64,000 nucleotides of DNA, from contig NZ_CP043505.1 in the NCBI RefSeq assembly GCF_008365295.1, positions 1,612,001 to 1,676,000 of the forward strand, given 5' to 3'. The position numbers were made by a program, and so were the translations under genes. Shown here piece after piece: positions 2,761 through 53,914 of the stretch (its first letter is position 1; the number at the start of each line of letters is the position of its first letter). Source of the stretch: Agromyces intestinalis. Its GTDB lineage: Bacteria; Actinomycetota; Actinomycetes; Actinomycetales; Microbacteriaceae. The notes beneath the pieces are model-generated. The model saw only the letters and a program-made list of their open reading frames with translations, made no database searches and was not told where the DNA came from.

Positions 2761-2820
2761 CCGTTTGGACGCGATTCGGCGCCGGCACCCCGACCCACCC
2801 GCCGAAACTCGTCCAAACGG
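2761..2820. repeat. Intergenic palindrome, family A, copy 1
   Basis: Two 21-nt arms (2761-2781 and 2800-2820) pair at 19 of 21 positions around an 18-nt loop. The arm word TTTGGACGCGATTCGGC recurs at 47.2, 48.3 and 53.9 kb. It lies between the convergent 3' ends of the NYN gene and gdhA, so here it could act as a bidirectional terminator; there is no U-tract. Confidence 0.85.
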
Positions 2821-2869
2821 CGATGACCGAGGCCGAGGCCGCCGGGCGCGCGAGCGGAGCGCGGGCGCG

Positions 2870-4225
2870 TCAGATCACGCCGAGAGCGAGCATCGCATCG
2901 GCCACCCGCAGGAAGCCCGCGATGTTCGCACCGAGCACGTAGTCGCCGGGTGCGCCGTACTCGTCGGCGGTCTCGGCGCAGCGCTCGTGGATGCCCTGCA
3001 TGATCTCGGCGAGGCGCGCGTCGGTGTACTCGGCGCCCCACGAGTCGCGCGACGCGTTCTGCTGCATCTCGAGCGCCGAGGTCGCGACACCGCCCGCGTT
3101 CGCGGCCTTGCCCGGGCCGAACAGCACGCCCGCCTGGCGGAACAGCGCGGTCGCCGCCGGCGTCGTGGGCATGTTCGCGCCCTCGGCGACGGCGACGACG
3201 CCCGCGTCGATGAGCAGCTTCGCGTCGGCATCGTCGAGCTCGTTCTGGGTGGCCGACGGCAGCGCGACCGAGACCCGGTGCTCGCGGGCGATCTGCCACA
3301 CGCGCTCGCCCGGCAGGAACGTCGCACCGGGGCGCTCGGCGACGTACTGGTCGATGCGGGCGCGGCGCTGCTCTTTGACGTCGCGCAGCAGCTCGACGTC
3401 GATGCCGGCGGGGTCGTAGACCGAGCCCGACGAGTCGGAGGCGCCGACGACCTTGCCGCCGAGCGCGTGCACCTTCTCGATCGAGTAGATCGCCACGTTG
3501 CCCGACCCCGAGACGAGCACGTCGAGCCCGTCGAACGACATGCCGCGGGTTTCGAGCATGTGCTGGGTGAAGTAGACCGCGCCGTAGCCGGTGGCCTCGG
3601 TGCGCATGAGCGAGCCGCCCCAGGTGATGCCCTTGCCCGTGAGCACGCCCGACTCGTAGCGGTTGGTGATGCGCTTGTACTGGCCGAAGAGGTAGCCGAT
3701 CTCGCGGCGGCCCACGCCGATGTCGCCGGCGGGCACGTCGGTGTACTCGCCGATGTGGCGGTGCAGTTCGGTCATGAACGACTGGCAGAACCGCATGACC
3801 TCGGCGTCGCTCTTGCCCTTCGGGTCGAAGTCGCTGCCGCCCTTGCCGCCGCCGATGGGCATGCCGGTGAGGGCGTTCTTGAAGATCTGCTCGAAGCCGA
3901 GGAACTTCACGGTGCCGAGCAGCACGCTCGGGTGGAACCGCAGCCCGCCCTTGTACGGGCCGAGCGCCGAGTTGAACTGCACGCGGAACCCACGGTTGAT
4001 CTGCACGCGCCCGCGGTCGTCGACCCACGGCACGCGGAAGATGATCTGTCGCTCGGGCTCGCAGACGCGCTCGAGGATGGATGCCTCGACGTACTCGGGG
4101 TGCTTGTCGAGCACGCGGTCGAGCGATTCGAAGACCTCGCCCACCGCCTGGTGGAACTCGGTTTCGCCCGGGTTGCGGACGAGGACGCTCTGGAAGATGT
4201 CGGCGATGGTGCCGTTCTCGGCCAT
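2870..4225 (-). CDS. gdhA: NADP-specific glutamate dehydrogenase
   Basis: A 451-residue hexameric-type glutamate dehydrogenase that interconverts 2-oxoglutarate plus ammonium and L-glutamate in the cytoplasm. The glutamate-binding segment [20 protein letters not shown] and the glycine-rich catalytic Lys region [16 protein letters not shown] are intact, as is the dinucleotide-binding fold ([20 protein letters not shown]). Length and the C-terminal [15 protein letters not shown] motif fit the 450-residue NADP class. The start at 4225 ([12 protein letters not shown]) is chosen over an in-frame ATG at 4384 because GGAG lies 8 nt upstream and family N-termini begin there. It is divergent from the lactate operon. 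Confidence 0.96.
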
Positions 4226-4416
4226 GGTGAAACTCCAACGGCGGATTGAGGGATTCCGCACGCCGAGGGAGTCGGCGGAGGCGGCTGGGAACTCCGCGCC
4301 GGGGTGGTGCGCGGGGGTGCGCCGAACGGGCGCGGGGACTTGGTCTTGCCAATAGCTGGGGACTTCGTCGACCCGTCGCCGCATTCACCCTAACCCATGT
4401 GAACTCGGTGTTTCCT

Positions 4417-4461
4417 GTGGTCTGACCACTTCGATACCCCGTGCTACTGTGGTCTGACCAC
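4417..4461 (+). promoter_or_regulatory. Twin LldR/FadR-type operators over the lld promoter
   Basis: Two identical 13-bp palindromes GTGGTCTGACCAC lie at 4417-4429 and 4449-4461, 32 bp apart centre to centre (about three helical turns). They contain TGGTNNNACCA, the core recognised by FadR-subfamily GntR regulators such as LldR. A possible -35 (CTGACC, 4422-4427) and -10 (TACTGT, 4445-4450) overlap the two sites, so bound dimers would block transcription of the downstream regulator and lldD. Confidence 0.8.
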
Positions 4462-4484
4462 ATCCGCACCGCCGAGGGGGCACG

Positions 4485-52289: not shown

Positions 52290-52750
52290 GCGGGCTGTCG
52301 GGTTCGGGTCTCGAGGGGCTGTACCAGCAGCTCATCCTCGAACATTCGAAGGCGCGGCACGGCGAGGGCGTGCTCGACCACGCGGATGCCTCGCATCACG
52401 AGCTCAACCCGAGCTGCGGCGACGAGCTGACCCTGCAGGTGCGTCTCGCCGACGACGGCGAGCGCATCGAGGCGGTCGCCTGGCAGGGCGACGGATGCTC
52501 CATCTCGATGGCCTCGACGTCGGTGCTCGTGGATCTCGTCGCCGGAGCATCCATCGAGGAGTCGCTCGCGCGGGCCGAGGCGTTCCGCACGATGCTGCGC
52601 TCGAAGGGCGCGGGCGAGCCCGACGAGGAGCTGCTCGGCGATGCCGTGGCGTTCCACGGCGTCTCGAAATACGTCATGCGCGTGAAGTGCGCGATGCTCC
52701 CGTGGGTCGCGCTCGAAGCTGCGGTGAAGCAGGCGGCAGCCGCCCACTGA
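52286..52750 (+). CDS. sufU: SufU-type iron-sulfur assembly protein
   Basis: A 154-residue SufU with the three conserved zinc-ligand cysteines in [23 protein letters not shown] and [10 protein letters not shown], plus the Asp of the first motif. SufU accepts persulfide sulfur from SufS. The ATG overlaps the sufS stop codon (ATGA), giving a two-gene operon, and it converges with the enoyl-CoA hydratase-family gene. The 18-residue insertion characteristic of SufU relative to IscU lies in the [18 protein letters not shown] region. Confidence 0.92.
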
Positions 52751-52768
52751 TCGCCCTCGCCGGTCGGG

Positions 52769-53815
52769 TCAGCCCCACACGCCGGGGTACCGCTGCTCGT
52801 CGAGCACCCGCGCCGCGAGGTCGGCGGGCACGTCGGCGAGGCGCGCGGGGTTCCACTTCGGCGCGCGGTCCTTGTCGATCACCTGCGCCCGGATTCCCTC
52901 GGCGAGATCGTGCTGCTCGATGAACCACGTCACCGCACGGAACTCCTGCTCGAGCGCGTCTTCGAGCCTCGGCAGGGTGCGCGCGCGACGCACGGCTTCG
53001 AGCGTGACGGTCAGCGCGGTGGGCGACAGGGTTTCGAGTTCATCGGCGGCGGCCGAGGCATCCGGATGCTCCGCAGTGCGCAGCCGTTCGATGATCTCGT
53101 CGACCGTGGGCGCCGAGAAGCACGCGTCGACCCAGTCGCGCGCGAGCGCGAGCTTCGATCGCCCGGGGGTCTCGTCGAAGAGCATGACGATCTCGCTCGG
53201 CGTGCCGGGGTCGGCGCGTTCGGCGAGCGCCTGCAGCAGGTGCGGCAGGTGCTCGCTCGGCACGTACGCGTCGGCGAAGCCGGCGTACAGCGCGTCGGCG
53301 GCGTCCATGGTGCGCGAGTTGAGTGCGAGGTGCACGCCGAGCTCGCCCGGCGCCGACGCGAGCAGCCAGGTGCCGCCGACGTCTGGCGTGAACCCGATGC
53401 GGGTCTCGGGCATCGCGAGCTTCGACCGCTCGGTGACGACCCGGATCGACGCGTGCCCCGCGAGCCCGATGCCACCGCCCATGGTGATGCCGTCCATGAT
53501 CGCGACGACCGGTTTCGGGTAGCGCGCGATCGCGGCATCCAACCGGTACTCCTCGCGGAAGAAGCGGTGGGCGTCCTCGTGCCGGTCGCTCGTGGCCATC
53601 TCGTGGAGCTCGCGGATGTCGCCGCCGGCGCAGAATCCGCGGTCGCCGGCGCCGTCGAGCACGACCAGCCCCACCTCGGAATCGTCGCGCCACGCGTCGA
53701 ACACGCCGGTGAGCAGCCCGATCATCTCGTAGCTCAGCGCGTTGATCGCCTTCGGCCGGTTGAGCGTGACATGGCCGACCCCGTCGGCGACGGTCGCGTC
53801 GATGGGTTCGCTCAC
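52769..53815 (-). CDS. 3-hydroxyisobutyryl-CoA hydrolase (enoyl-CoA hydratase superfamily)
   Basis: A 348-residue crotonase-fold enzyme. LVVLDGAGDRGFCAGGDIRE and MDGITMGGGIGLAGHASIRV form the oxyanion hole, RIGFTPDVGGTWLLA follows, and the C-terminal extension (LPRLEDALEQEFRAVTWFIE, RAQVIDKDRAPKWNP) is the mark of HIBCH-type hydrolases in valine catabolism, which yields propionyl-CoA precursors; that fits the prp genes nearby. The GTG at 53815 is chosen because TAGCGT (complement of 53823-53828) lies 7 nt upstream. Confidence 0.88.
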   Translation of the reverse strand: MSEPIDATVADGVGHVTLNRPKAINALSYEMIGLLTGVFDAWRDDSEVGLVVLDGAGDRGFCAGGDIRELHEMATSDRHEDAHRFFREEYRLDAAIARYPKPVVAIMDGITMGGGIGLAGHASIRVVTERSKLAMPETRIGFTPDVGGTWLLASAPGELGVHLALNSRTMDAADALYAGFADAYVPSEHLPHLLQALAERADPGTPSEIVMLFDETPGRSKLALARDWVDACFSAPTVDEIIERLRTAEHPDASAAADELETLSPTALTVTLEAVRRARTLPRLEDALEQEFRAVTWFIEQHDLAEGIRAQVIDKDRAPKWNPARLADVPADLAARVLDEQRYPGVWG

Positions 53816-53852
53816 GGATGTCACGCTAGCGCGTCGCCCCCGACCCCGACCT

Positions 53853-53914
53853 GTCGATTGGACGCGATTCGGCACCCCTCCGCCCGAGCGTCCGCCGAAT
53901 CGCGTCCAATCGAC
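53853..53914. repeat. Intergenic palindrome, family A, copy 4 (perfect)
   Basis: Arms at 53853-53873 and 53894-53914 pair at all 21 positions around a 20-nt loop (left arm includes GATTGGACGCGATTCGGC). Additional flanking CGCCCCCG/CGGGGGCG words extend the stem. Unlike copies 1 and 3, it lies in a divergent gap between two promoters, so it is not simply a terminator. Confidence 0.88.

Follow-up and report, generated by a model that had tools for sequence, protein, structure and literature searches.

The 64-kb window analysed here, by which we mean the whole stretch of Agromyces intestinalis DNA under study (genome G000, 3.80 Mb), contains four copies of a palindrome that we refer to as family A, a nuclease gene that lies between two of these copies, and palindromes of four other families with arm words of their own (Table 1). 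All four of the family A palindromes that a preliminary description had placed between positions 2761 and 53914 are present, and two of them do lie between convergent and two between divergent genes, but that description had missed that the second and third copies (47181 and 48305) bracket a single gene. (Regulation of the prp, or propionate, genes, suggested by the neighbors of these two copies, was dropped as an explanation once the bracketed nuclease was recognized.) No curated Rfam model matched at its gathering score within the window. For families B and C we found no cognate nuclease in G000, where no nuclease carries their arms; both families are dispersed in G000, and C is also dispersed in the close relative G069, so that they may be orphan families or belong to a different enzyme.

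Table 1 Palindromes and nuclease gene in the 64-kb window.
Feature	Position	Strand	Context
Family A palindrome, solo	2761-2820		In the gap between an NYN-type gene (+) and a convergent glutamate dehydrogenase gene (-), both named by eye
Family D palindrome, GAGAAAACAGGATGAG N36	6735-6802		Cognate nuclease at G000:1411.9 kb
Family C palindrome, CGAGTGTTTCCGTTCGCGCAC N26	14735-14802		
Family B palindrome, CAAGGTCGATTYGCG N32	19064-19153		
Family B palindrome	26886-26955		
Family E palindrome, CGGGGYCGCTYGTGGTCGC N15	32660-32724		Cognate nuclease at G000:1274.1 kb
Family E palindrome	35803-35855		
Family A palindrome (copy '47181')	47179-47242		5' boundary of nuclease unit, flanked by the genes for citrate/methylcitrate synthase and the nuclease
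Nuclease gene, 307 aa	47351-48274	+	AbiEi-like N-terminal part and Vsr/DUF559/MTES_1575-like C-terminal nuclease
Family A palindrome	48305-48363		3' boundary of nuclease unit, ahead of prpB
Family A palindrome, solo	53853-53914		Between divergent enoyl-CoA hydratase (-) and LysE-type (+), names by eye
Family C palindrome	62296-62369		

The core of a family A palindrome consists of a 19-nt arm, CGTTTGGACGCGWTTCGGC, a loop of 20-21 nt, and the inverted 19-nt arm. The 18-nt loop reported previously reflects one additional G-C pair that shortens the loop; it is otherwise 20-21 nt. With up to three mismatches allowed, a 16-mer of the arm has 10 matches in the window against 1.8 expected, and none of 100 shuffled sequences reached 10. 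Across the G000 genome, all 14 exact GGACGCGATTCGGC 14-mers occur in inverted pairs, and 4 of the 18 copies with one mismatch are unpaired. Thus, as had been proposed, the arm word belongs to a dispersed family and is nearly always paired rather than randomly single, with no exact single arms in G000; a DNA-uptake-like signal was ruled out because single arms are practically absent. The hundreds of intergenic copies that had been anticipated did not materialize for this family: a covariance model identified 17 copies in G000 at E <= 1e-10, together with one weak copy, and the arm word of a further family, H, reaches 70 matches in G069. When 85,000 genomes were scanned for the exact pattern, family A turned up only in Agromyces and in one Streptomyces hairpin, which we took to be a chance match, its contig being without a nuclease. 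Fifteen of the 17 copies in G000 fall within 1.45 Mb (0.88-2.33 Mb; p about 5e-4, for a region chosen post hoc), and this region surrounds the cumulative GC skew minimum of the sampled blocks at about 1.9 Mb.

The sequence of the arms is itself constrained. Eleven of the 19 arm pairs are invariant in family A, with variation confined to a few positions, and at arm position 13, which is A or T, the two arms change together (8 A-U, 6 U-A and 1 broken; n = 15). Moreover, the arms in G069 read TTCGGACG or ATCGGACG and those in G000 mostly TTTGGACG, and the copies at 1160 kb and 2180 kb carry double compensatory changes between the two genomes. The selection on a specific stem that had been suggested is therefore borne out insofar as arm pairs are invariant, loops are free and double changes compensate; the denial of mobility that accompanied it is not.

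That denial rested on the argument that a mobile unit would keep its loop. However, REPINs, which are mobile, are likewise built of two inverted REP arms with a spacer between them (PMC3116915), copies of family A bracket a nuclease gene, and the argument is further opposed by the bracketing seen in other families, by the presence or absence of whole units, and by copy numbers that follow the nuclease (see below). Within family A of G000 the loops are, as had been described, unlike in sequence and equal in length, their mean identity (0.487) lying close to that of shuffled sequences (0.455 +/- 0.006), but orthologous copies in G069 conserve their loops, which in five G000/G069 pairs differ at about 13 of 101 positions by hand count. 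Furthermore, the two loops of one unit are 78-85% identical in families G, H and I and in two G075 units of family A. Because loops are related within units, a loop can be copied along with its arms and afterwards change more quickly than they do. Many G000 copies have no counterpart in G069, a species only a few per cent diverged, and yet their loops are unrelated; some copies may have acquired a new loop as they were made. Loop length is fixed for each family, at 20 nt for A, 32 for B, 26 for C, 36 for D, 15 for E, 22 for G, 56-57 for H, 55 for I and 50 for J. We considered loops as guide-like spacers on account of this fixed length, but the related loops within units favor copying followed by drift.

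The protein encoded between the second and third copies has an AbiEi-like N-terminal DNA-binding region and a C-terminal domain of Vsr-like fold with conserved acidic residues, of which E200, D233 and D260 are invariant. The N-terminal two-thirds matches AbiEi models (PADLOC AbiEi, E 8e-7). The C-terminal domain has profile matches to Vsr structures and to 3r3p, and its best structural match is the catalytic domain of I-Bth0305I (TM 0.79 by target length). Since the Foldseek E-values were weak (none below 1e-3), we base the fold assignment on the C-terminal domain and the profile matches. All Pfam matches of the family A protein fall under the curated cut-offs; PF13338 exceeds its cut-off in three paralogs, and DUF559 (PF04480) exceeds its curated cut-off in five of seven other paralogs, whereas the family A protein falls under it.

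The pairing of palindromes with such nucleases recurs. Homologs that are 56-59% identical occupy the same prpD-prpC gap in G075 and in A. binzhouensis, flanked by palindromes on both sides in the former and on one side in the latter. The flanking arm words are specific to the species and are shared with its own dispersed copies (CGAGAGGACGGG in G075/G076 and CGATTGGACGGAATTCGGC in A. binzhouensis). G000 itself encodes seven nuclease paralogs, of which A, E, G, D and I are bracketed on both sides by private arm words and J carries them on one side. The seventh (G000:C1:737275-738246, L241) has no palindromes in its flanks and is possibly domesticated. In an automated test for the same arm on both sides, 13 of 27 nuclease loci from five Agromyces genomes passed, whereas among 569 control genes a single one did (Fisher p 1.6e-18); inspection by eye raises the count of nuclease loci to 16 of 27 by including D, I and a G075 gene that is split. 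(The sole control gene to pass owes its pair to GGATGCC/GGCATCC, a word very frequent genome-wide that forms many short-loop hairpins, for example at L099 8044, L141 11688 and L150 9705.) In A. ramosus, two family-A-like palindromes (L200 5906-5969 and 7360-7423) lie 1.45 kb apart with no recognizable nuclease between them, and this pair may be a decayed unit.

Homologs of the nuclease are present in 50 of 150 genomes of a phylum-wide sample. Of the 27 loci from distant Actinomycetota that could be used, 4 pass the same-arm test (p 1.6e-5; L277 and L273, which are cut by a contig end, were excluded), most loci failing this strict test. Distant loci with matched palindromes are found at L283, L284, L267 and L278, some with loops of 3-4 nt, so that the layout is not uniform across the phylum. 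The more alike two nucleases are, the more alike are their arms (Mantel r 0.57, p 2e-4).

We compared G000 with G069, whose flanking DNA is about 90-97% identical. Family A has 17 copies in G000, where nuclease A is present, versus 5 in G069, where it is absent and the only nucleases are H and J. All five G069 copies are orthologous to copies in G000; the seven further G000 copies that we checked are missing from the corresponding G069 gaps. Those missing include the solo copy at 2761-2820 and that at 53853-53914, the latter in a gap of 79 bp in G000 and 22 bp in G069, and the two nuclease-flanking copies are missing along with the gene, the gap there holding other genes. The converse holds for family H, whose 70 arm-word matches in G069 (nuclease H present) compare with 6 in G000 (absent; p 2e-14), and among eight other species the word has 6 matches in one and none in seven. 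For families D and E, whose nucleases are found in G000 only, 1.24 Mb of G000 holds 7 copies of D and about 15 of E, and 0.32 Mb of G069 holds no copy of either; family C is about equally dense in both genomes. As for whole units, G000 has A, D, G and I where G069 has short gaps or other DNA, H shows the reverse and J is shared; in this comparison of two species without an outgroup, each difference may be a gain or a loss.

Empty orthologous gaps, which had been proposed as a check, exist, but their flanks differ too and none is a clean empty site. Neither a target duplication nor a clean insertion was seen at seven family A gaps, at three family H sites, or at the D, G, I and H units, and sites with and without an element differ in their flanks as well, which are much changed at the empty sites compared. 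Units and several solo copies sit in short tandem repeats, C-rich on the left and G-rich on the right, that are missing from the empty sites; these rebuilt flanks suggest to us break repair. In G069, a different palindrome (arms about ACCGTSTTCAGTC) occupies gaps whose G000 counterparts hold family A or the D unit (L121 8977-9227 and L289 580-815), and intergenic gaps of this kind seem to be shared hot spots. Four tandem family E palindromes with a 96-bp period, three of them with nearly identical loops, lie at L155 5079-5419 (G000 about 2157.3 kb) and are absent from G069. Inverted pairs of CGTATCGAGACC...GGTCTCGATACG, which we call family F (L143 19844, L156 9018, L162 2618 and L172 13401), have no fixed loop length and differ in kind from A-J.

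That palindrome families are associated with AbiEi-Vsr nucleases is well supported, and we regard it as highly probable, the bracketing, its recurrence, the co-variation of arms with nucleases, the reciprocal copy numbers and the presence or absence of units all being observed. We further think it probable that family A consists of REPIN-like, non-autonomous mobile palindromes whose arms are recognized by the nuclease, which drives their spread. In such a scheme the inverted arms would be the recognition sequence of the cognate nuclease in the window; its AbiEi-like part may bind them, by analogy with AbiEi proteins, which bind 23-bp inverted repeats (PMC7319586), the Vsr/I-Bth0305I-like domain would cut or nick at the arms, and repair or copying would then spread the palindrome, alone or together with the gene. 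The arms would be conserved since the enzyme must recognize them, and the loop, of family-specific length, would not be read and could diverge. Binding, cutting and spread caused by cutting are here predictions from sequence. Counting against this explanation are the lack of clean insertions, the orphan families B and C, the one palindrome-free paralog, the failure of most distant loci in the same-arm test, gains and losses that are not told apart by an outgroup, and the Pfam scores of the family A protein, which stay under the curated cut-offs.

Other explanations were weighed against the same observations. Were the palindromes operators, through which an AbiEi-like protein autoregulates by means of the bracketing copies and governs the dispersed ones as a regulon, nothing would need to be mobile. 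AbiEi proteins do autoregulate through inverted repeats in their promoter (PMC7319586), and each bracketed unit has one copy just upstream of the gene. However, the other copy of the pair is downstream of the gene, the dispersed copies of family A are mostly found near 3' ends or between convergent genes and not at promoters, and close species differ in which copies and units they have, with expansion where the nuclease is present, so that we hold this explanation to be quite unlikely. Alternatively, the gene might be a selfish, homing-type nuclease, with the palindromes and tandem-repeat flanks representing scars left at intergenic hot spots by repeated cutting followed by error-prone repair. 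The catalytic domain is indeed closest to that of the homing endonuclease I-Bth0305I, and the C-rich and G-rich repeats around units and several solo copies, together with the lack of target duplications, would fit such an origin; scarring would not, however, recreate one and the same 19-nt arm at 17 sites around loops of constant length, and we consider this explanation unlikely. (I-Bth0305I, an EDxHD/Vsr-like homing endonuclease, resembles the present protein in its catalytic fold, but the present gene is in neither an intron nor an intein and lies between palindromes that have further copies at other places.)

It is very unlikely that the palindromes are maintained as stems at the level of RNA, that is, as terminators or processing hairpins under selection. 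The arms co-vary, some stems run on into copy-specific complementary flanks (83 versus 70 expected pairs, p 0.006), and G069 has an ordinary terminator-like hairpin at the 3' end of clpB, and a different hairpin at the 3246 kb site, where G000 has family A. Yet a terminator requires no particular word and no set loop length, two of the four window copies lie between divergent genes and thus not at 3' ends, the gene and the element at 1011 kb have between them a conserved terminator-like hairpin distinct from the element, and the pairing with nucleases would be left unexplained. Also very unlikely, and by a small margin the least probable, is a classical REP/REPIN moved by a RAYT or a MITE of a DDE insertion sequence. 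The layout is that of REPINs, with inverted doublets around a spacer and an enzyme gene flanked by repeats (PMC3116915), but the Y1 transposase (PF01797) was detected in none of eight genomes (G000 and seven relatives), control genomes being positive; the arms flank nuclease genes instead, and no target duplications were seen.

The families described here nonetheless share with REP/REPIN-RAYT systems dispersed intergenic palindromes arranged as inverted doublets around a spacer, with few singles, and a tie to an enzyme gene that is flanked by its own repeats and co-varies with them. They differ in that the flanked enzyme is an AbiEi-Vsr-like nuclease rather than a Y1 HUH transposase, in their fixed loop per family (15-57 nt), in the absence of a GTAG tag (the tetranucleotide is not common at either hairpin foot in family A alignments), and in having tens rather than hundreds of copies. 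The nuclease-palindrome pairs thus work like REP-RAYT without being a member of it, as the defining transposase is absent and an enzyme of another superfamily stands in its place. Compared with the AbiEi antitoxins of AbiE type IV toxin-antitoxin systems, which the N-terminal two-thirds resembles and which also bind inverted repeats, the present protein has an added C-terminal nuclease, its repeats lie on both sides and are dispersed, and no toxin partner is encoded inside the bracketed unit. CGTC-tagged REPs are palindromic families for which, likewise, no dedicated transposase has been reported, and the family A arm contains CGTC; their stems are 8-9 bp and their loops 4-5 nt in an account that does not mention Actinobacteria (PMC3733652), against 19 bp and 20 nt in family A. 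We found no report of a pairing between palindromes and AbiEi-Vsr nucleases in the open-access literature, subscription journals and preprints being mostly outside our search. To our knowledge, the superfamily is not known as a partner of dispersed palindromes, and we regard the novelty of the pairing as provisional.

These findings raise the possibility, to which we would give even chances, of an unrecognized class of mobile element widespread in Actinomycetota, in which AbiEi-Vsr/DUF559 nucleases each recognize a private palindrome word. Such a class would propagate in two forms, the nuclease unit and the solo palindrome, its arms being copied faithfully and its fixed-length loop being renewed or drifting. 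If so, a large family of actinobacterial antitoxin-like/DUF559 genes would drive a REP-like element unrelated to tyrosine transposases, representing a second, independent origin of palindrome-enzyme pairs, and this would explain both palindrome families without a known enzyme and why intergenic DNA turns over so fast in these genomes. It would also provide ready pairs of enzyme and recognition word for studies of DNA binding, and many proteins now seen as 'type IV antitoxins' or endonuclease-domain proteins would be the engines of a class of mobile elements.
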